A stretch of DNA of 64,000 bases from [Actinomadura] parvosata subsp. kistnae (GTDB lineage: Bacteria; Actinomycetota; Actinomycetes; Streptosporangiales; Streptosporangiaceae). The notes beneath the pieces were generated by a model. It was not told where the DNA came from and ran no database searches. It worked only from the letters and a program-made list of their open reading frames with translations. The DNA is taken from NCBI RefSeq assembly GCF_900323885.1, contig NZ_OOHJ01000018.1, forward strand, positions 3,397,001 to 3,461,000, read 5' to 3'. The position numbers and the translations under genes are program-made. Positions 4,160 through 34,846 of this stretch are shown one piece after another. How positions within the stretch are numbered: the stretch's first letter is position 1; each line of letters starts with the position of its first letter.

Positions 4160-4975
4160 ATGATCGATACAGGGCTGTCAGGAAAGGTCGCGCTGATCAC
4201 AGGCGCCAATCACGGCATCGGCGCGGCGACCGCGAGCGCACTGGCGGCCGAAGGGGTCGCGGTGCTCCTGACGTACAAACGGCTTGAGCCCTTGAACGAG
4301 CCCGCCTATCCGGACACCTACGACCGGGCCCGTGCCGGCACCGCCGACGAGGTGGTGCGCCGCATCCGCGAGGCGGGCGGCACCGCGGAGGCGTTCGAGG
4401 CCGACCTGGCCGACGCGGAGGCGCCGAAGCGGCTGTTCGACCTGGCGGAGGAGACGTTCGGGCCGGTGGAGATCCTGGTCAACAACGCCAGCGGCTGGCT
4501 CAGCGACACCTTCACGCCCACCGAGCGCGACGGGTTCGGCCGCCCGCTGCGGCTCGTGGACGCCGAGACGCACGACCGGCAGTTCGCGGTGGACGCGCGG
4601 GCGGCCGCGCTGCTGATCGCGGAGTTCGCGCGGCGGCACCTGGCGCGCGGGGCGAGCTGGGGCCGCATCATCGGCCTGACCTCCGGCGGGCGCGACGGCT
4701 TCCCGACCGAGGTCTCGTACGGCGCGGCGAAGGCCGCCCAGGAGAACTACACCATGTCGGCCGCGCACGAGCTGGGCCGCTACGGCATCACGGCCAACAT
4801 GGTCTACCCGCCCGTCACCGACACCGGCTGGATCAACGACGAGGTGGCCAGGGCGGTCGCCGAGAGCGCGGTGCTCAAGGAGATCGCGCAGCCGGAGGAC
4901 GTGGCCGAGGTGATCACGTTCCTGGCCTCGCACCAGGGGCGGCGGGTGACGGGGCAGACCATCAGGATGTACTGA
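4160..4975 (+). CDS. Short-chain dehydrogenase/reductase (3-oxoacyl-ACP reductase-like)
   Basis: A 271-residue classical SDR. The cofactor motif TGANHGIG is at residues 14-21 and the NNAS variant of NNAG at 108-111. The catalytic Ser is near 175 and Tyr187/Lys191 fall in YGAAK. An extra 20-30-residue segment after beta-2 (around LEPLNEPAYPDTYDRA) is longer than in FabG. Oxidises or reduces a small alcohol/ketone with NAD(P)(H). The start is ambiguous (ATG at 4148, 4151 or 4160) with no clear ribosome site; 4160 is preferred because the others overlap the divergent gene's start. Confidence 0.87.
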   Translation: MIDTGLSGKVALITGANHGIGAATASALAAEGVAVLLTYKRLEPLNEPAYPDTYDRARAGTADEVVRRIREAGGTAEAFEADLADAEAPKRLFDLAEETFGPVEILVNNASGWLSDTFTPTERDGFGRPLRLVDAETHDRQFAVDARAAALLIAEFARRHLARGASWGRIIGLTSGGRDGFPTEVSYGAAKAAQENYTMSAAHELGRYGITANMVYPPVTDTGWINDEVARAVAESAVLKEIAQPEDVAEVITFLASHQGRRVTGQTIRMY

Positions 4976-4985
4976 ACGGGGCTGC

Positions 4986-5933
4986 TCAGGATGTGCTGAA
5001 CAGGGCGCTGACCGACTCGCCGTAGTGGATCCGGCGCATGGCCTCGGCCAGGGCCGACGCGATCGACAGCACGGTGAGCTTGTCGGTGGGCTTGGGCGGC
5101 GGGACGGTGTTGGTGCAGACGATCTCCTGCACCTCGGGCAGCGCGCTGAGCCGGTCGAGGGCGTCGGCCGAGAACAGGCCGTGCGTGCACGCCACGCGTA
5201 CGGACCGCACGTCGCGTTCGCGCAGCCGGTCGAGCAGCTCGATGACCGTGCTGCCCTTGGCGATCTCGTCGTCGAGGATGATGACGTCCTTGCCGGCCAC
5301 GTCGCCGATCACGGAGCTGATCACGACGCGGTCGTCGCTGAAGCGCTGCTTGGCGCCCATGGCGACGCCGGTGCCGAGCAGGCGGGCGAAGTGCGCGGCC
5401 TCCTTGGCGTTGCCGAGGTCGGGCGAGACGACGACCGTGTTGGACAAGTCGTACCGGCGGAAGTGCGCGGCCAGCTCGCGCAGCGCGTGCAGGTGGTCGA
5501 CGGGGACGCTGAAGAAGCCGTGCACCTGCGGCGAGTGCAGCGTCATCGCCAGCACCCGGCTGGCACCCGCGGCCACCATCAGGTCGGCGACCAGCCGGGC
5601 GCCGATCGAGATGCGCGGCGCGTCTTTCTTGTCACTTCGGGCGTAGGCGTAATGAGGCATCACCACGGTGGTCCGGGCGGCGGAGGCGCCGCGGGCGGCG
5701 TCGAGCATGAGCAGCAGCTCGACGAGGTGCTCCTGCACGGGAGGCACGAGCGGCTGGATGAGGTACACGTCGCGCTCGCGGCAGTTGGCCTGGAGCTGCA
5801 CTTCGAGCACGTCATTGGCGAAGCGGTTGATCTGGACGGGGTGCAGAGGGGTGCCCAGGTGGGCGCAGATCTCCTCGGCCAGTTCGGGATGGGCGCTGCC
5901 GCTGAAAACCGTGATGTCTCGCACGATTCCCAC
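4986..5933 (-). CDS. prs: Ribose-phosphate pyrophosphokinase (PRPP synthetase)
   Basis: A 315-residue PRPP synthetase, normal length. The catalytic flexible loop YARSDKKD is at residues 97-104 and the PRPP-binding loop at 221-229. That loop reads DDEIAKGST rather than the usual DDMIDTGGT. It makes PRPP from ribose 5-phosphate and ATP for nucleotide, His and Trp synthesis. The loop change and the absence of glmU, the usual neighbour of the housekeeping actinobacterial prs, suggest an accessory paralogue. The start is a GTG at 5933 (a GTG at 5924 is also possible). Confidence 0.88.
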   Translation of the reverse strand: MGIVRDITVFSGSAHPELAEEICAHLGTPLHPVQINRFANDVLEVQLQANCRERDVYLIQPLVPPVQEHLVELLLMLDAARGASAARTTVVMPHYAYARSDKKDAPRISIGARLVADLMVAAGASRVLAMTLHSPQVHGFFSVPVDHLHALRELAAHFRRYDLSNTVVVSPDLGNAKEAAHFARLLGTGVAMGAKQRFSDDRVVISSVIGDVAGKDVIILDDEIAKGSTVIELLDRLRERDVRSVRVACTHGLFSADALDRLSALPEVQEIVCTNTVPPPKPTDKLTVLSIASALAEAMRRIHYGESVSALFSTS

Positions 5934-5997
5934 ATGGTAGCCATGGGCACTGACGTTCCACGAGAGCAGCCCTGAGCTCAGCGCCTCCTGGGGTTCT

Positions 5998-6636
5998 TCA
6001 CCCGGCGAGTTCGGCTGAGAGCGCGTCGAGGCCGGGCAGGACGCGCCAGGCCAGGGCGAGCGCGTCGGGCGCGGGTGGGTAGCGCGGGTGCGGCACCGCG
6101 ATCACGCGCATTCCTGCCGCGTACGCCGAGCGGAGCCCGTTGCTGGAGTCCTCGACCGCCACGCATTTCTGGGGGTCGGCCCCGATGCGCCGGGCGGCCT
6201 CCAGGTAGCCGTCGGGCGCGGGCTTGCCGCGCGGCACCTCCTCGGTGGAGACGGTGGCCGCGAAGCACTCCGTCAGCTCGGCCGCCTCCAGAACGACGTC
6301 GATGAGCCGGCGCGGGGACGAGCTGGCCAGCCCCAGCGTGATCCGTCCGGACAGCCGCCGGACGGTCTCGACGGCCCCGGGCATGAGCGGCACGTCGTCG
6401 CGGTAGCGTGCGGCCATCTGCTCGACGACGCCGCGCGCGATCTCGTCGGGGGGCAGCTCGACGCCGAGCTCGTGCAGGTACGCGGCCCATTCGCCGGTGC
6501 TCATGCCCATGAGTCTGGACTGCGTGTCGGGCTGCCAGGTGCCTCCGTGGTCGGCGACGAACGCCCGGCGCACCTCCTCCCAGACCGGCTCGCTGTCCAC
6601 CAGCACCCCATCGAGGTCGAACACGCACGCTTCCAT
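5998..6636 (-). CDS. HAD-superfamily hydrolase (beta-phosphoglucomutase-like)
   Basis: A 212-residue HAD phosphatase starting MEACVFDLDGVLVDSEPVWE. The nucleophile motif DLD is at residues 7-9. Motif II is SSS around 110, the motif III Lys lies in RGKPAPDGY and motif IV is VEDSSNG. The small helical cap between motif I and II is that of the PGM/phosphatase-like subfamily, which acts on small sugar phosphates. The longer reading from 6675 adds a non-conserved N terminus, so the ATG at 6636 is preferred. It follows prs on the same strand with a 64-bp gap. Confidence 0.85.
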   Translation of the reverse strand: MEACVFDLDGVLVDSEPVWEEVRRAFVADHGGTWQPDTQSRLMGMSTGEWAAYLHELGVELPPDEIARGVVEQMAARYRDDVPLMPGAVETVRRLSGRITLGLASSSPRRLIDVVLEAAELTECFAATVSTEEVPRGKPAPDGYLEAARRIGADPQKCVAVEDSSNGLRSAYAAGMRVIAVPHPRYPPAPDALALAWRVLPGLDALSAELAG

Positions 6637-11976: not shown

Positions 11977-12308
11977 CGCCACGGCGCGCACCGGACGAGG
12001 CCGCGCGACGACACTACGGCGCACGCCGGATGAGGCCGTGCGACGACACTACGGCGCACGCCGGATGAGACCGCGCCACGACACTACGGCGCGCACCGGA
12101 CGAGGCCGCGCCACGACACTACGGCGCGCACCGGATGAGGCCGTGCGACGACGCCACGGCGCGCACCGGACGAGGCCGCGCCACGACACTACGGCGCGCA
12201 CCGGACGAGGCCGCGCCATGACGCCACGGCGCGCGCCGGACGAGGCCGCGCCACGACACTACGGCGCGCGCCGGACGAGGCCGCGCCGCGACGCCAGGAT
12301 GCGCGCGG
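11959..12308 (+). repeat. 35-bp tandem repeat array (about 10 units)
   Basis: Ten units of 35 bp (the last 34) follow directly, starting inside the last six codons of the MFS gene. Units differ by a few substitutions such as CACTA/CGCCA. Within and across units GGCGCG and CGCGCC are 13 bases apart and could pair, so the transcript would form a row of hairpins. There are no spacers, so it is not a CRISPR. Confidence 0.92.
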
Positions 12309-12345
12309 ACGAAGCCGCGCCATGAGGCTCCCGCGATCGCGGGTG

Positions 12346-13326
12346 TCATGAGGCCAGGAGGCGTGCCTCCACGTCCGGGTCGAGGCCCTTGAGGGGCCGG
12401 TCCGCCCGCAGGGGCGCCTGACCGCCGAGGCCGCGCAGCCAGGCCCACGTGTCGGCCACCGTCTCCGTCACCGGCCGCACGCGCAGCCCCGCCGCCACCG
12501 CCTTGCTCACGTCACCCCCGTGCAGGAAGTCGTAGTCGGCGCCGACCAGCCAGAACGGCAGCCCCACCCACGGCTCCACCCCGGCCGCCAGCAGCCGCTC
12601 CTCCTCGATCCAGCGCAGCTCGGCCCCGGACCCGGTCACCTTCACGCACGTCTCCAGCAGCTCTCCCATCGTCGTGAACCCGGGCGGCGACACCACGTTG
12701 AACGCCCCGCCGACGCCCCGCGCCCCCGCCTCCAGGCACCACACGGCGAGATCGCGGGCGTCGATGTACTGCAGGCCCCGATCCGCCGGCGCGGGCGCGA
12801 CCACGGCCCCGCCCCGGGCGATCCGGCCGAGCCACCACGGCAGCCGCCCGACGTTCTCGTGCGGCCCGATGATCAGCCCCGCCCTGGCCAGCAGCGCCCG
12901 GTCGCCGAACGCGGCCACCGCCCCCAGCTCGCCGCCCGCCTTGTTACGCGCGTAGGGGCCGTCGCCGTCGTCGGCCGAGGCCGCCACCACGGGCGCGCTC
13001 TCGTCGGCCCCGAACGGCACCGGCTCGGCGTGCACGGACCGGCTGGAGACGTACACGTAGGAGCCGGCCCGCCCAGCCAGCAGCGCGGCGGAGTCCCTGA
13101 CCGCGGAGGGCGCCCACGACCAGGTGTCGACCACGACGTCCCACTCGCCGCGCTCCAGCGCGGCGAGCCCGCCGGGCGCGGTGCGGTCGCCGCGTAACAC
13201 CGTCACCCCGGCCGGCGGCTCCTGGCTGCCCCGGTTGAACGCCGTGACCTCCCACCCCATCGCCAGCGCCTCGCCGACGACCACCCGGCCGACGAACCCC
13301 GTGCCACCCAGCACCAGAACCTTCAT
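12346..13326 (-). CDS. NAD-dependent epimerase/dehydratase family protein (atypical SDR)
   Basis: A 326-residue extended SDR starting MKVLVLGGTGFVGRVVV, with the nucleotide-binding GGTGFVG at residues 7-13. YVYVSSRSVHAEP precedes a catalytic YARNK near residue 134. Such proteins act on nucleotide sugars, or serve as reductases or RNA-binding chloroplast-like homologues. No pathway neighbours are present. The reverse strand upstream carries the orphan HAMP kinase. Confidence 0.83.
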   Translation of the reverse strand: MKVLVLGGTGFVGRVVVGEALAMGWEVTAFNRGSQEPPAGVTVLRGDRTAPGGLAALERGEWDVVVDTWSWAPSAVRDSAALLAGRAGSYVYVSSRSVHAEPVPFGADESAPVVAASADDGDGPYARNKAGGELGAVAAFGDRALLARAGLIIGPHENVGRLPWWLGRIARGGAVVAPAPADRGLQYIDARDLAVWCLEAGARGVGGAFNVVSPPGFTTMGELLETCVKVTGSGAELRWIEEERLLAAGVEPWVGLPFWLVGADYDFLHGGDVSKAVAAGLRVRPVTETVADTWAWLRGLGGQAPLRADRPLKGLDPDVEARLLAS

Positions 13327-13488
13327 GGCCCCCACCCTGCCCGCCGGGCCGGCCGCCCGTAAGTCATGCACGCCGTCAGCGGAATCGCCGGGAGCGAAAC
13401 ATGTACGGACAGTATCCGTCGATCATGTTGCGTCTGCCACGGGCGGGTAAAGGTTACTCACAGTGATGACAGGAAGGCGGGGACGGGA

Positions 13489-14592
13489 TTGACAACACGG
13501 TTGCTGCCAAGAGCCCGGCGGTCGCTTCCGCGCGGCCGGGGCCTGCTGCCACGTGCTCGTGGGTTGCTGCCGCGTTCGATCCGGGCGCGGCTGACCACGG
13601 CCGCGACCCTGGTGGCCGCGGCCGTGTTCGTCGGCGCGTCGGTCCTCACGCTCGCCACCGTGCGCGGGGCCGGCGCTTCCGCCGACGTGGACGCGGCGCT
13701 CAGGTGGATCCATCTGATGGTGTTCCTGGGCACGCCGCTCGTCCTGGTGATCGTCGCGCTGCTCACCTGGGCCGCGGTGAGCCACGCGCTGCGTCCCGTC
13801 GAGCGCGTACGCGCGGAGCTGGCCGAGATCACGGGCAGGGACCTCAGCCGGCGCGTCCCCGTCCCTCCCACAGGTGACGAGATCGCCGACCTGGCCGCGA
13901 CCACCAACCACACGCTCGACCGCCTGGAGCGCTCGGCCGAGACGCAGCGCCGCTTCGTCGCCGACGCCTCGCACGAGCTGCGCAGCCCCATCTCCGCCCT
14001 GCGCGCCCAGCTCGAGATGGCCGCCAGCTATCCCGACGAGACGGACTGGCCGGCCACGGGCACGCGGGCGCTGGCCGCCGCCGACCGGCTGACCGGCATC
14101 ATCGACGAGCTGCTGATGCTGGCCAAGCTCGACGCGGGCGCGCTCACGCAGCGCCGCGTGGTGGACCTGCGCGCGGTGGCGGAGGAGCAGCTGCGCCACC
14201 GCGCGGGCGGCCCCGTGCCGATCCTTCTGCGCGCCCGCGCGGCGGCCCCGGTGCTCGGCTCGCCGGTGCAGCTCGACCGCCTCCTGACGAACCTGCTCGA
14301 CAACGCCACCCGCCACGCCCTGTCCAGGATCGAGGTCGAGGTGACCGTACGGGAGGAGCAGGTGGTCGTGACCGTCACCGACGACGGCGACGGGATCGCG
14401 CCGGAGGACAGGGAGCGGGTCTTCGAGCGGTTCACCCGCCTGGAGAGCGCCAGGGCGAAGGACAAGAGCGGCAGCGGCCTCGGGCTGCCGCTGTCGCGGG
14501 AGATCGCCACGGCCCACGGCGGCACCCTGACGGTCGCCGACCACGCGCCCGGCGCCCGCTTCGTCGCCGTCCTGCCGTTGCACCGTGGCTGA
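13489..14592 (+). CDS. Sensor histidine kinase (HAMP-HisKA-HATPase)
   Basis: About 367 residues. A cationic N-terminal tail is followed by two membrane segments with a very short extracytoplasmic loop, a HAMP linker (LRPVERVRAEL onward), HisKA with RRFVADASHELRSPISALR, and HATPase_c with N box LLDNATRHA, DDGDGI and GSGLGLPLS. No response-regulator gene is adjacent, so it is an orphan kinase. No in-frame ATG or GTG gives a good start; the TTG at 13489, after AGGAAGG, is the best choice. Its first codons are built from a 21-bp tandem repeat. Confidence 0.85.
   Translation: MTTRLLPRARRSLPRGRGLLPRARGLLPRSIRARLTTAATLVAAAVFVGASVLTLATVRGAGASADVDAALRWIHLMVFLGTPLVLVIVALLTWAAVSHALRPVERVRAELAEITGRDLSRRVPVPPTGDEIADLAATTNHTLDRLERSAETQRRFVADASHELRSPISALRAQLEMAASYPDETDWPATGTRALAAADRLTGIIDELLMLAKLDAGALTQRRVVDLRAVAEEQLRHRAGGPVPILLRARAAAPVLGSPVQLDRLLTNLLDNATRHALSRIEVEVTVREEQVVVTVTDDGDGIAPEDRERVFERFTRLESARAKDKSGSGLGLPLSREIATAHGGTLTVADHAPGARFVAVLPLHRG
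13498..13581 (+). repeat. 21-bp in-frame tandem repeat, four units
   Basis: Four 21-bp units encode heptapeptides RLLPRAR, RSLPRGR, GLLPRAR and GLLPRSI, forming the basic cytoplasmic tail before the first membrane helix of the sensor kinase. Units are diverged in sequence but keep the phase. Confidence 0.75.
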
Positions 14593-16877: not shown

Positions 16878-17786
16878 GTGGGTGCGCACGTGAAGATCAG
16901 GGAACTGCTCGGCGACCGCGACGTCGCCGAAGTGCTCGACGTCGTCGAGCAGGCCACCGAGGCGGACGGCGTCCGCCCTCTCAACGAGCACGTGATGCTC
17001 CATCTGCGCTACGGCGGAGATCCGCTGGCGCGGTCGTTGCTGCTGCGCACCGACGACGGCACGCTCGCGGGCTACGCGCACGTGGACCCCACCGACGAGG
17101 TCGAGGGCCCGAGCGTGGAGCTGGTCATCCACCCGGCCCATCGCCGCCAGGGCCACGGCACGCGGCTGCTGCGCGCCGTACTGGAGCTGACCGGGAGCCC
17201 CGTGCGGCTGTGGGCGCACGGAGACCATGCCGGAGCCGGCGCGCTGGCCGCCGCGTTCGGCTTCGAGCGGGTGCGCTCGCTGTGGCAGATGCGCCGCTCC
17301 CTGTTCGCCCCGCTCGCCACCTACACGCTGCCGGACGGGGTGACGCTGCGCACGTTCGTGCCCGGACAGGACGAGGAGGCGTGGCTCAAGGTGAACGCCG
17401 CCGCCTTCGCCCACCACCCCGAGCAGGGCGCCTGGACGATGGACGACCTGCTGCGGCGCGAGCAGGAGCCCTGGTTCGACCCGGAGGGCTTCTTCCTGGC
17501 CTACCGCGGCGACCGGCTGGCCGGCTTCCACTGGACGAAGATCCACGGCTCCTCCGACCACGGCCACGAACCGCTGGGAGAGGTGTACGTGGTCGGGGTG
17601 GACCCGTCGCAGCAGGGCACCGGCCTGGGCCGCTCCCTCACCCTGGCCGGGCTCGTCCACCTGCGCGCGCGTGGCCTCGCCCAGGCGATGCTGTACGTGG
17701 ACGAGACCAACACGGCGGCGATCCGGCTGTACGAGTCCCTCGGGTTCAACCGGTGGGACGTGGACGTGATGTACGCGCCCCAGTGA
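16878..17786 (+). CDS. mshD: Mycothiol synthase
   Basis: About 302 residues with two GNAT domains in tandem. The first has RRQGHGTRLLRA as acetyl-CoA loop. The second has GVDPSQQGTGLGRSLT followed by LYVDETNTAAIRLYESLGF, the strongly conserved MshD C-terminal signature. It transfers acetyl to Cys-GlcN-inositol, the last step of mycothiol synthesis, an actinobacterial marker pathway. TAGAGT at 16865-16870, seven bases before the GTG at 16878, looks like the -10 of a leaderless transcript; a GTG at 16890 is the alternative start. Confidence 0.92.
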   Translation: MGAHVKIRELLGDRDVAEVLDVVEQATEADGVRPLNEHVMLHLRYGGDPLARSLLLRTDDGTLAGYAHVDPTDEVEGPSVELVIHPAHRRQGHGTRLLRAVLELTGSPVRLWAHGDHAGAGALAAAFGFERVRSLWQMRRSLFAPLATYTLPDGVTLRTFVPGQDEEAWLKVNAAAFAHHPEQGAWTMDDLLRREQEPWFDPEGFFLAYRGDRLAGFHWTKIHGSSDHGHEPLGEVYVVGVDPSQQGTGLGRSLTLAGLVHLRARGLAQAMLYVDETNTAAIRLYESLGFNRWDVDVMYAPQ

Positions 17787-18794
17787 TCAGCTCTCGATGA
17801 TGGCGTGCAGGATGAAGTAGGACACCGCCGCCACGATGGCGGCGGCCGGGATGGTCAGGATCCACGCGGTCACGATGTTCCCCGCGACGCCCCACCGCAC
17901 GGCGCTGAGCCGCTTGGTGGCGCCCACGCCCATGATGGCCGTGGTGATCGTGTGTGTGGTGGAGATGGGCGCCCCGAACCCGATGGCGGCCCCGTACAGG
18001 ACGGTTGCCGCCGCCGACTCCGCGGCGAACCCCTGGGGCGGGTCCAGCGCGATGATGCGCCGCCCCAGCGTCCGCATGATGCGCCAGCCGCCCGCGTACG
18101 TGCCGAGCGAGATCGCCCCGGCGGCGGCCAGGATGACCCACTGCGGGATGGGATCCGTCTGCTGGGCGAACCCGCCGACGGTGAGCGCCAGGAAGATCAC
18201 ACCCATCGTCTTCTGCGCGTCCTGCAGCCCGTGCCCGAGCGCCATGGCGGCGGCCGAGACGGTCTGCGCGTAGCGGAAGCCGCGGTTGGTCTTCCCCGGC
18301 TGGCTGTTGCGGAAGATCCAGTAAATTGCGATCATGATCGCCGCGGCGAGGCTGAAGCCGATCAACGGCGACAGCACCATCGGGATGACGACCTTCTCGA
18401 CCACGCCGTCCCAGTGCACCACGCTGGACGACGCCAGCGCCGAGCCCACCAGGCCGCCGATGAGGGCATGGCTGGAGGAGGAGGGCAGCCCGAAGTACCA
18501 CGTGATCAGGTTCCAGCAGATCGCGCCGATCAGCGCCGCGGCCACGATGACCAGGCCGTGCGAGCCGTTCGGCGCGTCGATGATGCCCTTGCCTACCGTC
18601 TGGGCGACCTGGGTGCCCAGGTGGGCGCCGATGAAGTTCATGGCCGCGGCCATGAACAACGCGGCCCTGGGGGTCAGGGCCCTGGTCGAGACGGAGGTCG
18701 CGATGGCGTTCGCCGCGTCATGGAAGCCGTTGGTGTAGTCGAAGGCAAGGGCGATGACGACCACGCCGATGACGAGGGCGAGCGTGAGGTCCAC
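17787..18794 (-). CDS. Low-affinity inorganic phosphate transporter, PiT family
   Basis: A 335-residue PiT permease with about ten membrane helices. The duplicated PiT signatures are visible as GFHDAANAIATSVSTRAL near the N terminus and APISTTHTITTAIMGVG near the C terminus, with LPSSSSHALIGGL in between. It imports metal-phosphate with protons. It lies nine bases downstream of a DUF47 gene on the same strand, the standard Pit-accessory operon. Confidence 0.94.
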   Translation of the reverse strand: MDLTLALVIGVVVIALAFDYTNGFHDAANAIATSVSTRALTPRAALFMAAAMNFIGAHLGTQVAQTVGKGIIDAPNGSHGLVIVAAALIGAICWNLITWYFGLPSSSSHALIGGLVGSALASSSVVHWDGVVEKVVIPMVLSPLIGFSLAAAIMIAIYWIFRNSQPGKTNRGFRYAQTVSAAAMALGHGLQDAQKTMGVIFLALTVGGFAQQTDPIPQWVILAAAGAISLGTYAGGWRIMRTLGRRIIALDPPQGFAAESAAATVLYGAAIGFGAPISTTHTITTAIMGVGATKRLSAVRWGVAGNIVTAWILTIPAAAIVAAVSYFILHAIIES

Positions 18795-18803
18795 GGCTGG
18801 GCC

Positions 18804-19421
18804 CTAGCTTTCCTTGACCGCGATCGACTCGACGGTGTTGGCCACGTGCTCGAAGGCGTCGGCCGCCTCTTCAAGGGCGTCGACGACCTCCTTCATCTTC
18901 ATGACGGTGAGAGCGTCGTACTCACCGCTGAACAGCTTGGCCAGCAGCCTCCGGTAGACCTGGTCGCCCTGGTTCTCCAGGCGGTTGACCTCGATCCAGT
19001 ACTCGTTGAGGTTCTTCATCGACCGCAGGCGCGGCATCGCCTCGGCGGTCAGCTCCGCCGCCCGCTCCAGCACCTCCACCTGACGGACGACGTCCTTGGG
19101 GAGGTGGTCGAGCTGGTAGAGGACGATGAGGTCGGAGGCGGCCTCCATGGCGTCCATCACGTCGTCGAGGTTCGAGGCCAGCCGGTAGATGTCCTCGCGG
19201 TCGAACGGAGTGATGAAGCTCTCATTGAGCCGGTTCATGATCGCATGGGTGCGTTCGTCACCGGCATGCTCGCAGGCGCGCATCTTCTCGGCCAGGGCCT
19301 CCCTGTCCGAGCCGTCGCTGATGATCTCAACCAGCAGACGCGATGCCGTGACCAGGTTGTTCGCCGAGTCGGCGAACAGGTCGTAGTAGCTGTCCTCACG
19401 TGGCGTGAGACGCAGGCGCAC
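18804..19421 (-). CDS. DUF47 family PhoU-like Pit accessory protein
   Basis: A 205-residue all-helical protein of the TIGR00153/DUF47 family: helical repeats containing CEHAGDERTHAI and TPFDREDIYRLASNLDDVMD, as in PhoU-like regulators. It is co-transcribed with the PiT transporter and thought to modulate it. The start is a GTG at 19421. A Pho-box-like repeat lies about 230 bp upstream. Confidence 0.92.
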   Translation of the reverse strand: MRLRLTPREDSYYDLFADSANNLVTASRLLVEIISDGSDREALAEKMRACEHAGDERTHAIMNRLNESFITPFDREDIYRLASNLDDVMDAMEAASDLIVLYQLDHLPKDVVRQVEVLERAAELTAEAMPRLRSMKNLNEYWIEVNRLENQGDQVYRRLLAKLFSGEYDALTVMKMKEVVDALEEAADAFEHVANTVESIAVKES

Positions 19422-19651
19422 GTCGTTCTCCAGATGTGCGGGGATGGTCCGTGGAAGAGGGTATGGCTAACCAGGCGAAATGCGAACTTCATGTCCCCTT
19501 CGCCTACTGGCTACCCGGCGTATGTTGTGCGACACCGCAGAACCGCGTACTTTTAGGCGGTTTTTTGCTGCTCGGGCCTAGTTTGGGGCTGCCCATAACG
19601 GCTCACTTGGGCGGGGTGAGGCGGGTGAAGGCCGCCGTCCGTTCGCCAAGT

Positions 19652-20711: not shown

Positions 20712-20785
20712 GCGGGTGTAGTTCAATGGCAGAACATCAGCTTCCCAAGCTGACAGCGCGGGTTCGATTCCCGTCACCCGCTCCA
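20712..20785 (+). tRNA. tRNA-Gly (anticodon CCC)
   Basis: Complete cloverleaf: acceptor GCGGGTG/CACCCGC, anticodon stem TCAGC/GCTGA around loop TTCCCAA (anticodon CCC), T arm GCGGG-TTCGATT-CCCGT, discriminator T, and encoded CCA at 20783-20785. Its 3' 44 bases are the integration target repeated twice downstream. Confidence 0.96.
20742..20785 (+). other. Attachment site copy 1 (3' end of tRNA-Gly)
   Basis: This 44-bp segment, from the anticodon loop to CCA, recurs exactly at 22477-22520 and 24157-24200. Tyrosine integrases of actinobacterial elements commonly use tRNA 3' ends, so this is the original attB-derived copy. Confidence 0.88.
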
Positions 20786-20792
20786 AACTGAA

Positions 20793-20828
20793 AGAGCCGG
20801 GTCAGGGATGGATTCCCGACCTGGCTCT
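20793..20828 (+). terminator. Hairpin terminator after tRNA-Gly
   Basis: AGAGCCGGGTCAGGGA pairs, with one bulge and wobbles, with TCCCGACCTGGCTCT, then a T-containing tail follows. It lies eight bases after CCA. Confidence 0.6.
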
Positions 20829-20865
20829 GATCGTTTCTAGGGCTCTGTTCGATCTTCCGTGCCCG

Positions 20866-21381
20866 TTACGTGCTCGATCCGTCTGGATCTTGGTCGTCAG
20901 GCTCGGGCTCCTCGGGCTTCAGGGCCTCCTCGGCGAGCTTGCCGAGAGCGTCTGCGATGGCCCTGTCGCGCTCCATCGCGGTGTGCTGGTAGATCAGCGC
21001 GGCCCGGGTGGACGAGTGGCCCATGCGGGTCATCAGGTCCCGAAGGGTTGCGCCGGACTGAGCGGCGAGAGTGTTTCCGGTGTGGCGAAGGTCATGGAAG
21101 TGGAAGCCACTGAGTTGGGCCTTCTTGAGCGCCGCAGCCCAGACGCGGGTGAAGTTCGCGCGACGGAGCTTGGCGCCCTTGGGGCCGACGAAGACGTGTC
21201 CGTGCTCGCCCTTCTCGGCGTACGTCTCCATGTGCTTGCGGAGGTCCGGAAGCAGGGTTGCCGGGATGCTGACGAGGCGCTTGCCCGCTTCAGACTTGGG
21301 CGGACCGATCGTCACCGAGCCGTCCTTGAGTTCGGTCGTGGTGCCGACGACGCGGATCGTGCCCGCGTCCAGGTCAAGCGG
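20866..21381 (-). pseudogene. Tyrosine recombinase (integrase), C-terminal fragment
   Basis: The reading has integrase homology from LDLDAGTIRVV to the end: the beta-hairpin Lys in PKSEAGKRLVSIP, HDLRHTGNTLAAQSG (HxxR box), MGHSSTRAALIYQHT with the nucleophile Tyr, and an acidic tail. The N-terminal arm/core-binding domains and the first catalytic Arg are missing. Upstream of about 21381 the same frame runs into unrelated GC-rich sequence. It sits just inside att copy 1 facing the tRNA, the usual integrase position. It is not expected to be active. The stretch 21382-21607 shows no gene. Confidence 0.85.
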
Positions 21382-21607
21382 CGGCGCGGCGCGCCGCCGC
21401 ACCCCGGCCCTCCGCCCGCCCACCGTCCGGGCATGCGGCCTGGGGGCCGGTCCCGGACGGCGGCGGCACACCGGGCCGGCCACCGCACACCTGCCCCGCC
21501 GTACGGACCGAACCCTCAGCACCGGGGTTGCCGCACCACCGCCCACGGCTCACTCTCAACCGGAAAACGATTTGCCGGAGCAGTGGTCCCACCTCAAGGA
21601 TCACCGC

Positions 21608-21811
21608 ATGAGCGATGAACTGGCCGGATTGGACGACCTCGTCATCCAAGGGCAAACGATCAGAGGCATCAAGCTCATCAAGGACACCTTTGAATGCACT
21701 CTTCACGAAGCCCTCGAGTTCTATGTAGACCGGTATCGCAAGCTGCGCCAGACGCGTCCGAATGACTTCACCGAGAGCCACGAAGAGTACTGGGAGGGCT
21801 TCTACTCCTGA
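21608..21811 (+). CDS. Small protein with an L7/L12 C-terminal-like helical motif
   Basis: A 67-residue protein starting MSDELAGLDDLVIQGQTIRG. The central segment IKLIKDTFECTLHEALEFYV resembles the alpha-helical IKxVRExTGLxLxEAKxxV unit of ribosomal L7/L12 C-terminal domains, used in several small actinobacterial proteins of unknown role. AAGGATC is about eight bases before the ATG. It lies between the integrase fragment and the palindrome in remnant 1. Function unknown. Confidence 0.65.
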   Translation: MSDELAGLDDLVIQGQTIRGIKLIKDTFECTLHEALEFYVDRYRKLRQTRPNDFTESHEEYWEGFYS

Positions 21812-21895
21812 TTAACCTAGGCCTCCGGCGGGGGCGCTCCGACTCCGGGATGATCGCCATACGGTGAGCCAGGACCGTAAGTGGCTGGCGTGGAA

Positions 21896-22050
21896 GCCTG
21901 ATCATCCCGCCCACCATCGACCCGGGACAAGCCGAGCAGACCAGGGCCACGGGTCAAGGGTCGTTCGTCCGGTGGGGCGCTCCGCCCTTGACCCGTGGCC
22001 CTGGCCCGCCTCCCCTTCGGGCGGGTCGACGGCAGACGGGATGATCAGGC
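21896..22050. repeat. Large nested palindrome, copy A
   Basis: A 155-nt imperfect cruciform. The outer arms are GCCTGATCATCCCG (21896-21909) and its exact complement (22037-22050). The middle arms are CCATCGACCCG (21914-21924) and CGGGTCGACGG (22022-22032). The inner arms are a perfect 20-bp stem, 21941-21960 with 21985-22004, around a 24-nt loop. About 75 bp of flanking sequence on the left is shared with copy B at 23403. Confidence 0.9.
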
Positions 22051-22198
22051 GGGCGGGGTGCGCGATGCGAGATCGCAAGCTCTTTATGATCAGGAGCAGT
22101 GTCGTGCGCATGAGGAGATGGGGGTTATGTCGGAGCGGATCGAGTGGACCATGCGCCACTTCTCCCAAGCGAACCCGTAAGGGCCAGGACAGGATGAC

Positions 22199-22348
22199 GT
22201 GCCCGCACTACTCCGACGAGTGGCCGACAGCATCGAGGAGTTGGGCAAGGTCGAGGTGCATGATCTGCTCATGCACACCGAGATCACCGCTGACGGCCCG
22301 TGGCACAACATCACGGTGTACTTCGATTACGTGACTGACGAACGCTGA
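22199..22348 (+). CDS. Short hypothetical protein of remnant 1
   Basis: A 49-residue reading from a GTG with AGGA four bases upstream. It starts VPALLRRVADSIEELGKVEV and ends with alternating hydrophobic/polar residues (ITVYFDYVTDER). It lies immediately before the arm-site repeats and att copy 2, the same position as the 148-residue gene in remnant 2. No family is recognised; it may be the 3' part of a once longer gene. Confidence 0.4.
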   Translation: MPALLRRVADSIEELGKVEVHDLLMHTEITADGPWHNITVYFDYVTDER

Positions 22349-22370
22349 CCTGGCGCTTTGCTGTGATCGC

Positions 22371-22391
22371 CGTGCAACTAGCGTGCAATTA
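22371..22391. other. Putative integrase arm-type sites, remnant 1
   Basis: Adjacent direct repeats CGTGCAACTAG and CGTGCAATTAG about 85 bp before att copy 2. The equivalent pair stands before att copy 3. Position and form suit integrase arm binding, but this is inference. Confidence 0.45.
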
Positions 22392-22476
22392 GCCAGGGGA
22401 ACGAGGGGTCAATCACGGTTACTCGCGACCGGCCTCCCGCCCAGCTCAAGGCTGCCATCAGCCGTGATCGATGCAG

Positions 22477-22520
22477 TTCCCAAGCTGACAGCGCGGGTTC
22501 GATTCCCGTCACCCGCTCCA
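22477..22520 (+). other. Attachment site copy 2
   Basis: An exact 44-bp copy of the tRNA-Gly 3' end, without the tRNA 5' half. It marks the junction of two tandem integrated remnants. Confidence 0.9.
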
Positions 22521-22959
22521 CCTGCTTCGCCTTCCACTTCGAGGCGCTTCGCGCATCTGGGCTCCAGCCCGCGCCTCCCAGGGGGCTCCGCCCCCTTCGA
22601 CCCCCGAAAAGCACCCACCCGTTGCCGATTTACCGGCTTGACCGTTGGGACCCCGCCCCAAAGGGTCCTCGCCTTCGGCTCGGGCTGTTCCTCCCTGGGG
22701 CTTCGCCATGGTTCGAGGGGCTACCGCCCCTCGAGCACCCCGGCCCGGCAGACCGGCGAGCGAGTTGTTCTTCACCATGGAGATTCCTGCGCAGCCAACA
22801 GCGTCGGAGCTGCCTAGGAGCGCCTGCCCGTTCCCGCAACCCATGAAATGCCCGCAGATGGCCGGGCTGCCGCTGTTCAGCGGCGCCTTGCCTCTTCTGG
22901 CGTCCGATCAGGTGCTTGTCGGTGGCTCAAGTGCCGGCCGGGGTTGCCGCGCCGCAGCA

Positions 22960-23301
22960 TCAAACTTCGGACTCCGCTGACCATGCAGCCCAAATGAGGG
23001 TCTCTCTCCACCCGGGCAGCCGGTAGAGCCACATGGTGAACACCTGCACCAGAAGCTGCAGGGTGTGGCAGGAAGCACGGAAGTGCGCGTCAGCACGGCC
23101 TTCGCGATACTCCAGCCAGTAGGCCCCGTCATCCCGAAGATACGCCTGCATGTAGTACTCGTCATTTTCTGCGTCCTGGCGCTCGACCACGAGGAACCGG
23201 TTGGACGCAGTCAATCCGCGCAACAAACCATGGAGGTCATCGGAGGTGGGGCCTTCGACAGTATCGCCGCGTTCATTGAATGCTCGCGCCTGCGAATCCA
23301 T
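22960..23301 (-). CDS. Hypothetical protein of remnant 2
   Basis: A 113-residue protein starting MDSQARAFNERGDTVEG. It contains FLVVERQDAENDEYYMQAYL and DDGAYWLEYREGRADAHF, a beta-rich acidic region seen in small actinobacterial proteins of unknown function, and a Trp-rich C terminus. Codon use is less G/C-biased than the chromosome. It lies between the left end of remnant 2 and palindrome B, pointing away from it. An immunity-type role is conceivable from the acidic beta-sheet look, but there is no direct evidence. Confidence 0.65.
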   Translation of the reverse strand: MDSQARAFNERGDTVEGPTSDDLHGLLRGLTASNRFLVVERQDAENDEYYMQAYLRDDGAYWLEYREGRADAHFRASCHTLQLLVQVFTMWLYRLPGWRETLIWAAWSAESEV

Positions 23302-23402
23302 GGTGCACAAGGTAACAACATCGATGCCTCTGGCCGGGGCGCTCCGGCTCGGGGATGATCGCTGTGCTGGGCAGCGGGGCAGTAGGTGGCTGAGGTGGAA
23401 GT

Positions 23403-23553
23403 CTGATCATCCCGCTCGCCATCGACCCGGGACAAGCCGAGCAGACCAGGACCGCGGGGCCAAGGTCGTTCGTCCAGCGGGGCGCTTCACCTTGTCTCCG
23501 TGGCTCTGGCCCGCTTCCCCTTCGGGCGGGTCGACGGCAGACGGGATGTTGAG
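23403..23553. repeat. Large nested palindrome, copy B
   Basis: A second copy of the structure at 21896. The middle arms are CCATCGACCCG and CGGGTCGACGG. The inner arms are 23446-23466 and 23489-23509. Most inner-stem substitutions relative to copy A leave G-U or G-C pairs, while the loop start TCGTTCGTCC is unchanged. The outer arm is less perfect (two mismatches). Confidence 0.85.
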
Positions 23554-23599
23554 GCGGGTGGGGTGTGCGCAGGTGCGCAATTCATGTCACGCTGCGCCT

Positions 23600-24046
23600 G
23601 TGCTCACTGTCCGCCAACTTCTCGACTACCTCACCGGCCAGCCCGACGAAACCCCCGTCGTAGTCGACGTCAACGCAGGGGGCTGGTATCTCCGCGTAGA
23701 AGATCTGAACGTGACCACCGCCCAAGACGCGACACCCGGTGGCGACCCTCTTGAAGGTGTTGAGATCAATATCTCCTGGGAGCCCGGCGATCGTGGCTGG
23801 ACCATAAATGACCCCTCCAAGACGCTCTTCACCCTGGACGACGTAGACGAACTGATCGCCGAACGCGACGCGCTCCGTCGGGAACTGTCAGACCTCCGAG
23901 CCGGCCTCTGTTTCTCTCTTCGCAAGTACCACAGCGAACCGGGGCCGCAAGGGCTGGTCGTTCGGTCCGTGCTCACCGATCAAGAGATCTTCGCCGAGAT
24001 CGAGCGACTCCGCACCATCACCGCCGAGCCCAGCTCAGAGCCTTGA
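23600..24046 (+). CDS. Hypothetical protein of remnant 2, right end
   Basis: A 148-residue protein from a GTG, starting VLTVRQLLDYLTGQPDETPV. The N-terminal VDVNAGGWYLRVEDL is followed by a beta-rich part and a coiled-coil-like helix DVDELIAERDALRRELSDLR near residues 78-97. The opening pattern (few residues, then PDxTPVVVDV) occurs in small proteins of actinobacterial mobile elements. It lies between palindrome B and the arm sites, like the short ORF in remnant 1. Function not recognised. Confidence 0.65.
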   Translation: MLTVRQLLDYLTGQPDETPVVVDVNAGGWYLRVEDLNVTTAQDATPGGDPLEGVEINISWEPGDRGWTINDPSKTLFTLDDVDELIAERDALRRELSDLRAGLCFSLRKYHSEPGPQGLVVRSVLTDQEIFAEIERLRTITAEPSSEP

Positions 24047-24050
24047 TCGA

Positions 24051-24071
24051 CGTGCCATTAGCGTGCCATTA
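24051..24071. other. Putative integrase arm-type sites, remnant 2
   Basis: Direct repeats CGTGCCATTAG and CGTGCCATTAA, aligned with the pair at 22371 and at the same distance from the att copy. They begin a block of about 100 bp conserved between the two remnants. Confidence 0.45.
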
Positions 24072-24156
24072 AGGGCGGTGACGAGGGGTGAACCACGGTC
24101 ACTCACGACCGGCCTCAGGCCCAGGTCAACGCCCCTACGAGCCAAGATCCCTGCAA

Positions 24157-24200
24157 TTCCCAAGCTGACAGCGCGGGTTCGATTCCCGTCACCCGCTCCA
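24157..24200 (+). other. Attachment site copy 3
   Basis: A third exact 44-bp copy of the tRNA-Gly 3' end. Confidence 0.9.
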
Positions 24201-24500
24201 CTGCATCGCCTTCCATTTTGGGGCGCTTCGCGCATCTGGGCTCCAGCCAGCGCCTCCCAGGGGGCTCCGCCCCCTTCGACCCCAGAAAAGCACTCGCCCG
24301 TTGCCCACTTACGGGTTGACCGTTGGGATCTCGCCCCAGAAGGAGCGCCTGCCCGACACCACAACCCGCCTATACCGCAGATGGCCGACGCCGCCCTGTT
24401 CGGCGGCGCCTTGCCTCTTCTTGCGCCGGATGAGGTGCTTGTCGACGGCTCAAGCGATCAGCTTGCCGGCGCCACGAACGGCGTAGATGGATCATCGGGG
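24201..24500. mobile_element. Left-end sequence of a third tandem element, truncated
   Basis: The bases after att copy 3 match the bases after att copy 2 over most of their length: about 150 bp at once, then a block matching 22825-22950 after a segment of about 150 bp that is present only in remnant 2. A third element therefore began here; its right end is not found nearby. The remainder of 24500-24957 shows no gene. Confidence 0.65.
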
Positions 24501-28414: not shown

Positions 28415-28785
28415 ATGGGCGAGGAGCTGTACGACATCGAGCTGGAGCCGGCGGTGGAGGCTTGGCTGGACACGTTGTCCGACCGGGATCACGCTGCTGT
28501 CGAGGCCGCTGTCGAACGGCTCGCTCAGTTCGGCGACCGGATGCCGTACGGTCATGCTCGCGACCTGGGTGATGGGTTGTGGGAGCTGCGCTTCGACATC
28601 GCACACCACTCGGTGCGCCTTACCTACTGGCCGAGGGGCGCCGGGCGGTGTTGCTGACTGCTTTCTGCAAGACGCGAGACAGACAGCCGCGCGATGTGGA
28701 GCGCGCCCGCAAGGCGATGGCTGAATGCATGGCCGGCGGCTTGGAGCACGGCGCCGCGCACTGGATCTATGAGGGAAGGGGCTGA
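28415..28785 (+). pseudogene. HigB/RelE-type toxin of module 1, frameshifted
   Basis: The first frame starts MGEELYDIELEPAVEAWLD and reaches LRFDIAHHSVRLTYW. The second continues AEGRRAVLLTAFCKTR, the conserved beta-sheet core plus basic residues of HigB-type mRNA interferases, then an Arg/Lys-rich helix. One G is missing at 28629-28630; adding it gives 123 residues without a break. The protein is similar in layout to the intact toxin at 34502. It is followed four bases later by the antitoxin gene (toxin-first order, as in higBA). Confidence 0.75.
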
Positions 28786-28789
28786 AGAC

Positions 28790-29122
28790 GTGGCCGGGCA
28801 CAGCAAGTGGAAGACGGTCAAGGCCAAGCGGCTTGCTGGTGGGGAGGTTAATCCTGAGTACGCCGCGATGGTGGAGGAGGCGCGATTGGGGCAGGAGCTC
28901 GGCGCAGCCGTATACCGCCGCCGCGTCGAGCTGGGCCTGTCTCAGACAGAGCTCGCCGAGCGGGCAGGCATGACGCAGCCGCAGGTATCCCGCTTGGAGG
29001 GTGGCGCGCACCTGCCGACGATTCCGCTGATGGTGCGGTTGGCGGCGGCGTTGGAAATTGATGTGGTGATGCATGGTGACATTTCCGCGCCGGTGGAGTT
29101 TCGGGCCATCACCGCCGCGTGA
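28790..29122 (+). CDS. XRE-family antitoxin (HigA-like), module 1
   Basis: A 110-residue protein from a GTG, after GGGAAGGGG in the end of the toxin gene. It has a flexible basic N terminus and an HTH_3 domain with LGLSQTELAERAGMTQPQVS, followed by PTIPLMVRLAAALEIDVVMH. It binds its toxin and represses the shared promoter. If the toxin frameshift is real, this is an orphan antitoxin. Confidence 0.88.
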   Translation: MAGHSKWKTVKAKRLAGGEVNPEYAAMVEEARLGQELGAAVYRRRVELGLSQTELAERAGMTQPQVSRLEGGAHLPTIPLMVRLAAALEIDVVMHGDISAPVEFRAITAA

Positions 29123-33817: not shown

Positions 33818-34048
33818 CTCACGTTATTCGAGGTTGTCCGGAATTGTCGGTCCCCGGCCTCTCGGGCGTCGCAAGCTCAAGTTGGTGAAGCGCACGAAAG
33901 GGAGGTAAGCAAGCGTGCGTGACGCTTCGCCAAGCTCGCGCGCATCGCGGGCCCGTTCGCAGCGCGATCAGCGGGAAGTCAAGGGGCTCGCGGCCGCCCT
34001 ATTGACATATGCCTTGTTCGGCCTGCCGATAGGCCATGGCCATGACGA

Positions 34049-34092
34049 TGCCAAGCTGGGAGCGCGGGTCCGATCGCAGTCACCAGCTCTCA
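34049..34092 (+). other. Degenerate sequence resembling the tRNA-Gly att site
   Basis: This 44-bp stretch matches the att repeat at 33 of 44 positions without gaps, including CCAAGCTG, AGCGCGGGT and GTCACC. The T-stem pairing of the tRNA is lost. It could be a decayed fourth att site bounding the whole variable region. The surrounding 33818-34196 contains no convincing gene. Confidence 0.35.
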
Positions 34093-34196: not shown

Positions 34197-34505
34197 TCAG
34201 CTGGCCTCCCGTAGCGGTTGGAACTCGACGTTGAGCCGCATCTCCAAGGCTTCTGCCAGGCGCTCCAGCATGGGGATGGTCGGCATGGTGCCCCCTGCCT
34301 CGAACCTTGCGACTGCCGGCTGCTTCAGCCCAGTGCGCTCTGCCAGTTGGGCTTGGGTCAGACCCAGTTGCTCACGCCGCAGTCTCACGGCCTCACCCAG
34401 CTCGAAACGGATTCTGGCCGCATCGTAGGCTGCTCCGGCACCAGGGCGACTCATGATTTCGGACTTCCTGTCAGCCCAAGTCCTGCGCTCGCTCACTCTG
34501 CTCAC
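34197..34505 (-). CDS. XRE-family antitoxin (HigA-like), module 2
   Basis: A 102-residue protein from a GTG that overlaps the toxin TGA (GTGA). The HTH_3 domain has LGLTQAQLAERTGLKQPAVA and PTIPMLERLAEALEMRLNV, closely resembling the antitoxin at 28790. The overlap ensures coupled synthesis with the toxin. It probably neutralises the toxin and represses the promoter dyad upstream. Confidence 0.9.
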   Translation of the reverse strand: MSRVSERRTWADRKSEIMSRPGAGAAYDAARIRFELGEAVRLRREQLGLTQAQLAERTGLKQPAVARFEAGGTMPTIPMLERLAEALEMRLNVEFQPLREAS

Positions 34506-34846
34506 CCCTCATCAGTGGTATGGGCCTCAGCGATACACCGCTGCATGACCCGCCACGCACGATCGATCTCAGCGGTCTCGCGCATCCGCTGCTTGCGGAA
34601 CACCGTCAGCATGATGATCCGTCGCCCCGGAGCGATCCAGTAGGTCATCCGAACCGCCTCTCGGTGAAGGTGAAACCGCAACTCCCGAAGCTTGCCGCAG
34701 AGCTGACGAGTGTAAGGCTCGTCGAGCAGGACGCCTCGCGCGGCCAGTAGGTCGATGTAGAACGCCGCAGTTTCCTGGTCTTCCTGATCGAGCGTGTCAA
34801 ACCACTCATCAACCTCTGGTTCCAGCTCCACCTCTCCCCAGTTCAT
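34502..34846 (-). CDS. HigB/RelE-type toxin, module 2
   Basis: A 114-residue protein starting MNWGEVELEPEVDEWFDTLD. It has the type II HigB-like core (KLRELRFHLHREAVRMTYW, then RRIIMLTVFRKQR) and a C-terminal basic helix. Predicted ribosome-dependent mRNA interferase. The ATG at 34846 lies in a promoter dyad with TATAAC nine bases upstream, so the transcript is probably leaderless. It is intact, unlike the related toxin at 28415. Confidence 0.9.
   Translation of the reverse strand: MNWGEVELEPEVDEWFDTLDQEDQETAAFYIDLLAARGVLLDEPYTRQLCGKLRELRFHLHREAVRMTYWIAPGRRIIMLTVFRKQRMRETAEIDRAWRVMQRCIAEAHTTDEG

Follow-up and report, generated by a model that had tools for sequence, protein, structure and literature searches.

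Cis-mobilizable elements (CIMEs) are defined as elements which have lost their integration and transfer genes and have kept both attachment sites, attL and attR (PMC5704250). For Frankia, two tandem actinomycete integrative and conjugative elements (AICEs) are reported to excise both separately and together (PMC3218068), and for Streptomyces, AICE accretion is reported and cis-mobilization of AICE-DAICE tandems has been proposed (PMC9513070). In Dehalococcoides, genomic islands stand in ordered tandem at a single RNA gene, ssrA; 15 of them have no integration module and are suggested to be cis-mobilizable (PMC3146451). A tRNA-inserted composite island of Shewanella is reported to be stabilized by the toxin-antitoxin pair HipAB (PMC8978831). 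Here, a tandem row of attachment sites (att) and small gene cassettes is analysed, which starts at the tRNA-Gly(CCC) gene in a stretch of 64,000 nt (the window; contig NZ_OOHJ01000018.1, positions 3,397,001 to 3,461,000) of the 13.6-Mb genome of [Actinomadura] parvosata subsp. kistnae, genus Nonomuraea, family Streptosporangiaceae.

The locus resembles CIMEs and AICE accretions in having tandem units at one tRNA, a common att and units without integrase genes and, among the representatives scanned, without transfer genes. It differs from them by many units of about 1 kb, which are found again as defined cassettes in several species, retain a single arm and often encode toxin-antitoxin pairs, and by rows of up to seven units throughout a genus. 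The Dehalococcoides islands differ in that they use serine recombinases and a tmRNA target, have a 20-bp repeat and carry reductive dehalogenase genes (PMC3146451), the Shewanella island in being a single 48-kb composite instead of a row of small cassettes (PMC8978831).

Among the open-access matches listed, which included papers on accretion and on CIMEs, no paper on rows of toxin-antitoxin cassettes at a tRNA in this family was found, subscription papers lying outside the search. Chromosomal integrons are arrays of small promiscuous cassettes, each with a recombination module at its 3' end, to which a tyrosine recombinase adds new members at a fixed end and in which many cassettes encode toxin-antitoxin pairs. 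The rows of small cassettes, the module at the 3' end, the tyrosine recombinase, the fixed insertion end and the toxin-antitoxin cargo are features in common; at the present locus, however, recombination would take place at the 3' end of a tRNA gene flanked by arm sites, with an AICE as the presumed helper. Gut Bacteroidales possess recombinase-associated acquired interbacterial defence arrays, recombinase-linked rows of small immunity genes. These belong to another phylum, whereas the rows described here contain predominantly toxin-antitoxin genes, start at a tRNA and are linked to AICEs. An integron-like gene capture, with the tRNA 3' end as fixed platform, the AICE integrase as recombinase and one-armed cassettes, each a gene or toxin-antitoxin pair followed by about 165 bp of arm and att, forming polar rows that record arrivals across the Streptosporangiaceae, is put forward tentatively.

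The reading favoured in this study, and regarded as probable, is that the one-armed cassettes travel as trailers of AICEs, i.e. by cis-mobilization, within a tRNA-anchored tandem array. Units of about 1 kb without a recognized mobility gene appear to move between species as defined modules, borrowing half the attachment site of a conjugative element. If true, this would explain the spread of single toxin-antitoxin and immunity genes in these actinomycetes, allow one-armed attachment sites to be tested cleanly and mean that conjugative traffic is recorded in order at a locus found in every Nonomuraea genome searched.

Tandem arrays downstream of tRNA-Gly(CCC)

The sample comprised 54 Nonomuraea genomes, some of them drafts, from each of which 1 to 78 kb downstream of the tRNA were taken. 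Units were delimited with one att model, and att copies were accepted at up to four mismatches. At least one att-bounded unit was found in 45 of the 54 genomes, giving 124 units in total and a longest row of seven. No second att was detected in nine genomes, of which four (G006, G018, G028 and G032) reach a contig end 1 to 8 kb past the tRNA, four (G008, G013, G014 and G036) retain arm remnants and one (G041) has a homologue of a cassette gene. A duplication of the tRNA gene without mobile elements, for which nothing speaks beyond the repeat itself, has a practically negligible probability: the 3' part alone is repeated, a single full tRNA match (E <= 1e-20) was obtained in each of the 54 genomes, and genes of mobile elements lie between the att copies. 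Beyond the genus, the pattern of arm end plus att (up to three mismatches) was found in 97 of 297 Streptosporangiaceae genomes and in 21 of 68 genera, Nonomuraea included. Since the same pattern read backwards gave no match among the matches listed, this recurrence is not attributed to chance. Named records with an exact match represent Nonomuraea and nine further genera.

Comparison of the units shows a common anatomy. Starting from the tRNA, the order is att, a hairpin, a left arm pair in AICE-size units (at about unit position +117, i.e. 74 nt from att), an integrase gene mostly on the minus strand, cargo, in some units a palindrome, a right arm pair chiefly 105 or 120–122 nt before att, and the next att. 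By their right arms, 68 units belong to one cluster and 52 to a second, four being unplaced. The hairpin, located in the 60 nt after att (z < -2 in 54% of the units versus 8% of mid-unit stretches, with shuffles preserving single-base content only), is read as a putative terminator for the tRNA. A near-palindrome of 244 nt, for which an origin, a transfer site or a terminator are candidate functions, is present in 23 of the 124 units and lies 377–396 nt before att in 13 of these.

The units were grouped into large (>=9 kb, 24 units), mid-size (60 units) and tiny ones (<=1.3 kb, 40 units). The integrase model was covered to at least 85% in 19 of the 24 large units, a count which sums pieces and may include broken integrases, partly in two and not in three; in a single open frame, this coverage was reached in 18. 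Domain matches of the integrase were Phage_integrase and SAM-like. In G037_u0, the sole large unit scanned for FtsK/SpoIIIE, the integrase is accompanied by an Xis-like HTH_17 protein and an FtsK/SpoIIIE protein (PF01580, 4.8e-12). RepSA was identified in the 3.3-kb unit G005_u0 (1.7e-43) and as a fragment in G042_u0. Most of the large units, the 19 with an integrase, look like AICEs of the pSAM2 type. Among the mid-size units, many are evidently AICEs in decay, with a partial integrase; none of the 40 tiny units matched the integrase model.

The comparison also shows a polarity of the rows. Rank 0, directly at the tRNA, is held by 17 of the 24 large units versus 10 of the 40 tiny ones, and att copies of higher rank, farther away from the tRNA, are more degenerate (rho 0.42, p 3e-7, n=138). 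Further arm remnants point in the orientation of the array in 54 of 55 cases and in the reverse orientation in one.

One-armed cassettes and their cargo

Arms were scored with 20-nt consensuses built from Nonomuraea and called present at 15 or more matching positions. A left arm was recognized in 20 of the 24 large and 26 of the 60 mid-size units, but in none of the 40 tiny units; the right arm was found in 23, 42 and 38 units, respectively. The background of these calls is low (hits in 0 of 620 shuffled 50-nt stretches, in 1 of 620 shuffled 65-nt stretches and, among 605 internal stretches chosen at random, in 1), and a looser left-arm pattern applied to the first 300 nt on both strands was likewise without match in the 40 tiny units. 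Of the units with both arms, 4 of the 20 large and 9 of the 21 mid-size ones combine a left and a right arm of different class. At 15 loci from nine other genera, 12 tiny units from seven genera were found, one with a left arm and nine with a right arm, the latter figure being biased upward by retrieval of the loci with the arm-end+att pattern. The Nonomuraea tiny cassettes have a core att on both sides; with a right arm in 38 and a left arm in none of the 40, their attL looks incomplete. No transfer genes were detected among the tiny-cassette representatives scanned with Pfam. Compared with the CIME definition (PMC5704250), the cassettes, as far as tested, have lost the genes concerned and by their arms retain only half of the attL/attR pair.

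The 40 tiny units form 22 families. Genes of small units were called by composition only, and Pfam was run on representatives of the families. Families with a toxin match, in the representative or a close homologue, account for 21 of the 40 units: DUF5615/PIN with DUF433 (8 units), Gp49 with HTH_3 (7), PIN (5) and PemK (1). An antitoxin-type partner (DUF433 or HTH_3) was recognized in 15 of the 21, and the toxin of G039_u3 is split over frames. Two more tiny units, with DUF6247 and a RelE-like ORF without Pfam match, may by inference encode toxin-antitoxin pairs. The cargo of other tiny units comprises SUKH (2 units), DUF4303 (below the cut-off), DUF6188, Uma2, DUF5655, an NmrA-type gene and unmatched genes, while Imm21 and DUF6985 were found in larger units. 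Out of ten cargo proteins searched with PADLOC, the Uma2 protein alone was matched, namely to a candidate system. In many cases the cargo amounts to a small but complete module, and in several cassettes the reading frames have changed mainly at third codon positions. Homologues of many cassette genes are located past the last att, which fits old, decayed members of the row.

A family of 208-aa proteins starting with MGTDIHGF (L195 2417-3037, L186 6967-7590) has homologues in 12 of the 54 Nonomuraea tRNA-Gly regions and distant ones (33–35%) at loci of Planotetraspora and Streptosporangium.

Sharing between species and the proposed mode of movement

Some cassettes are 97–99.9% identical between species whose conserved sequence is 85–95% identical. 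The cassette of the 895-bp class is 98.5–99.9% identical between G009, G039, G042 and G045 or G046, with 85.5–91.1% identity of the host sequence in the 2 kb upstream of the tRNA. The best-matching rpoB loci of G009, G039, G045 and G046 (from a comparison of seven loci of five species) are 91.8–93.8% identical between species, the pair G045/G046 excepted. Two pairs of a 1596-bp cassette showed 98.7% (host 86.7%) and 98.5% (host 90.1%) identity, a 1215-bp cassette 97.4% (host 86.2%). In a search of 15 Nonomuraea genomes, two rpoB-type matches were obtained in 12 and none in the other three.

G042 (4453-6226) and G045 (12283-14056) share a block with 99.3% identity, G039 (17703-19478) and G042 (4449-6226) one with 98.5%; both have their start within the upstream AICE-derived unit, at a depth of about 0.8 kb, continue through att and cassette and end 17 nt beyond the next att. 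Between G029 and G042, the AICE end alone is shared (97.9%), again ending at att, and between G012 and G050 the cassette alone, from att to att (98.4%). A spread between species solely through homologous recombination, in the arm+att modules or conserved flanks of what would be ordinary decayed AICEs or CIMEs, is considered quite improbable. The repeated modules, up to 96% identical across species to those of the window, would indeed be good substrates, and the decay of many mid-size units is in line with it; against this, the shared blocks end at att, the cargo often is an intact small module, and the tiny Nonomuraea units have lost the left arm in 40 of 40 cases and kept the right one in 38.

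For the favoured trailer model, the following course is proposed. The array would be built by the tyrosine integrase of AICEs, a complete element having the tRNA-Gly 3' end as core att between two arm pairs, the left one at a distance of 74 nt and the right one at about 105 or 121 nt, while the small cassettes (0.66–1.6 kb, with one gene or one toxin-antitoxin pair) would contribute a right arm and att at their 3' end only. An AICE would insert at the tRNA, ahead of resident cassettes, and bring its left arm. Since the left arm would be provided by this AICE in front, excision between the att of the tRNA and a distal att with the right arm of a cassette would yield a two-armed circle of AICE plus cassette or cassettes with a complete attP. 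The composite circle would be transferred and would integrate at the tRNA of the new host, where the AICE could later exit via its own two att copies and leave the cassette stranded beside the tRNA. New members would be added on the tRNA side of an array, and those farther away would decay. A possible advantage of toxin-antitoxin cargo is that losses from such an unstable repeat array would be penalized. This course would jointly account for the one-armedness, the shared blocks containing an AICE end, the mixed arm classes and the polarity.

In the preliminary description of this DNA, mobilization in trans had been suggested instead. In this case, the AICE integrase would act on a lone cassette, a right arm plus att being sufficient, so that each cassette circularizes and inserts alone. 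Shared blocks with differing neighbours, such as the G012/G050 cassette and one of G009 and G042 with about 72 nt preceding it, and the ten tiny units directly at the tRNA speak for this reading. Nevertheless, mobilization in trans appears unlikely and fits the data less well than mobilization in cis: a left arm is kept in 0 of 40 tiny versus 20 of 24 large units, the two long shared blocks span an upstream AICE end, att and cassette, and a lone circle would require its own route into another cell.

Several observations weigh against the trailer model. The ten tiny cassettes among the 45 first units require a later exit of the AICE or a direct insertion, and G009 and G042 have just the cassette and its short preceding sequence in common, as would be expected from independent movement too. 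A clean empty site, which according to the preliminary description should be seen in relatives, was not found among the 54 Nonomuraea genomes; against this stands the recurrence of att-bounded units across species. Other members of the cassette classes mentioned are only 72–94% identical (72–93% in the 895-bp class), in several cassette families the identity does not exceed that of the hosts, and the 100% identity between G045 and G046 is accompanied by a host identity of 98.5%. Just two host clocks were used, of which the one adjacent to the array could have recombined and rpoB has paralogues. One of the 12 tiny units outside Nonomuraea has a left arm and three are without a recognized right arm, and the left arm was also not recognized in 34 of the 60 mid-size units. 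Arrays make up 0.09% of the bases and contain 10 of 101 Gp49 and 8 of 17 DUF5615 matches of the genus; the enrichment of these two toxin families is not independent of the spread of cassettes, the eight DUF5615 matches representing one cassette family. Finally, excision, conjugal transfer of the composite and a selective role of the cargo are inferred from evidence that is comparative throughout.

The row in the window

Three att copies delimit two units of 1735 bp (unit 1) and 1680 bp (unit 2) in the window (Table 1). As stated in the preliminary description, the 3' 44 bases of the tRNA recur exactly at two positions and the right ends of both units are built alike: the palindrome modules align over 244 nt (83% identity), and a second block with the direct repeats and att (22364-22521 and 24044-24201) over 158 nt (82%). 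The palindromes are farther from att than usual as a consequence of the ORFs between palindrome and right arm. The statement that an integrase is present in unit 1 only, and truncated, was confirmed; the integrase-model search of unit 2 gave no match, and neither unit has the intact integrase of an AICE. Unit 1 has mixed arms, the left of class 1 and the right of class 0. Elements with the same right end and a one-frame integrase exist in relatives, e.g. G017_u0, G022_u0 and G024_u0, with the palindrome 384 nt before att. The description as tandem integration scars enclosing sequence related to integrase-bearing elements is supported, and the first two units are decayed AICE derivatives within a tandem array.

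Table 1. Features of the tRNA-Gly(CCC) row in the window
Feature	Position	Strand	Remarks
tRNA-Gly(CCC), target gene	20712-20785	+	att copy 1 is the 3' 44 nt (20742-20785)
Left arm site pair GTGCCCGTTACGTGC, class 1	20859-20873	+	74 nt past att; unit position +117, usual for AICE-size units
C-terminal integrase fragment, 178 aa	20866-21402	-	Phage_integrase 1.4e-14; covers model positions 212-371 of 372
Palindrome module copy 1	21821-22064	+	656 nt before att
Possible remnant of a small gene, its frame broken by a stop codon, located between the palindrome and the right arm	22127-22348	+	
Right arm site pair, class 0 (CGTGCAACTAGCGTGCAATTAG); direct repeats CGTGCAACTAG/CGTGCAATTAG	22371-22392	+	
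att copy 2	22477-22520	+	exact 44/44-nt repeat of tRNA 3' end
116-aa ORF, unit 2	22960-23310	-	homologue 61% identical adjoining same palindrome in G034
Palindrome module copy 2	23326-23569	+	831 nt before att
147-aa ORF, unit 2	23603-24046	+	homologues: 88% in G008 tRNA-Gly region, 46% in Planobispora locus
Right arm site pair, class 0 (CGTGCCATTAGCGTGCCATTAA); direct repeats CGTGCCATTAG/CGTGCCATTAA	24051-24072	+	
att copy 3	24157-24200	+	exact 44/44-nt repeat of tRNA 3' end
Gp49-type toxin gene, decayed cassette, split over two frames	28415-28773	+	80-90% identical to G026_u0 toxin; E 3.9e-6
HTH antitoxin-type partner	28790-29119	+	90% identical to G026_u0 partner; Pfam match is of G026_u0 protein
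Decayed right arm + att, class 1	33935-34090	+	nhmmer E 6.7e-15, right arm + att model
HTH antitoxin-type gene	34200-34505	-	90% identical to G029_u3; Pfam match is of G029_u3 protein
Gp49-type toxin gene, same cassette as 34200-34505	34508-34846	-	90% identical to G029_u3; match 34556-34807, E 1.3e-13

Other elements of the preliminary description need revision. The sequence after att copy 3 does match that after copy 2 (115 nt at 90%, plus shorter blocks to about 24454), yet the evidence is too weak for a third insertion having begun there, because similar sequence follows att elsewhere, both beside the tRNA and after the last att. The two units are non-autonomous and CIME-like as proposed; the compact recurring units, however, are other cassettes, found in relatives and further down the window. 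A likeness to miniature inverted-repeat transposable elements (MITEs) is not borne out, since the units share a single tRNA as target, are bounded by direct repeats of att and have arm sites, and the inverted repeats listed are not terminal, no test of genome-wide dispersal having been made. The row is also longer than had been assumed and includes a decayed arm with att plus two toxin-antitoxin cassettes (28415-29119 and 34200-34846).

The possible gene remnant of unit 1 has no homologue among the searched loci. Both ORFs of unit 2 were without match in Pfam and NCBIfam; for the 116-aa ORF, the AlphaFold model (mean pLDDT 64.5) had no Foldseek match at E <= 0.001 and was uninformative. A phage origin was considered and rejected: 81 phage records matched, and in the 20 listed the match is confined to the tRNA and att, with a query coverage of 2–4%.

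About 100 kb upstream of the window tRNA, right-arm-like sequence is present at G000:C22:3309439 and 3319661 (L003, L006; L039), with no att recognized at these sites at up to 10 mismatches. The 3' end of the tRNA itself (window positions 20784-20785) varies within the genus. All 74 nt through CCA are matched in 22 of the 54 genomes, two of them at 99%, and most of the remaining genomes match to position 72, followed by TC, as if insertions rewrite the last two bases.

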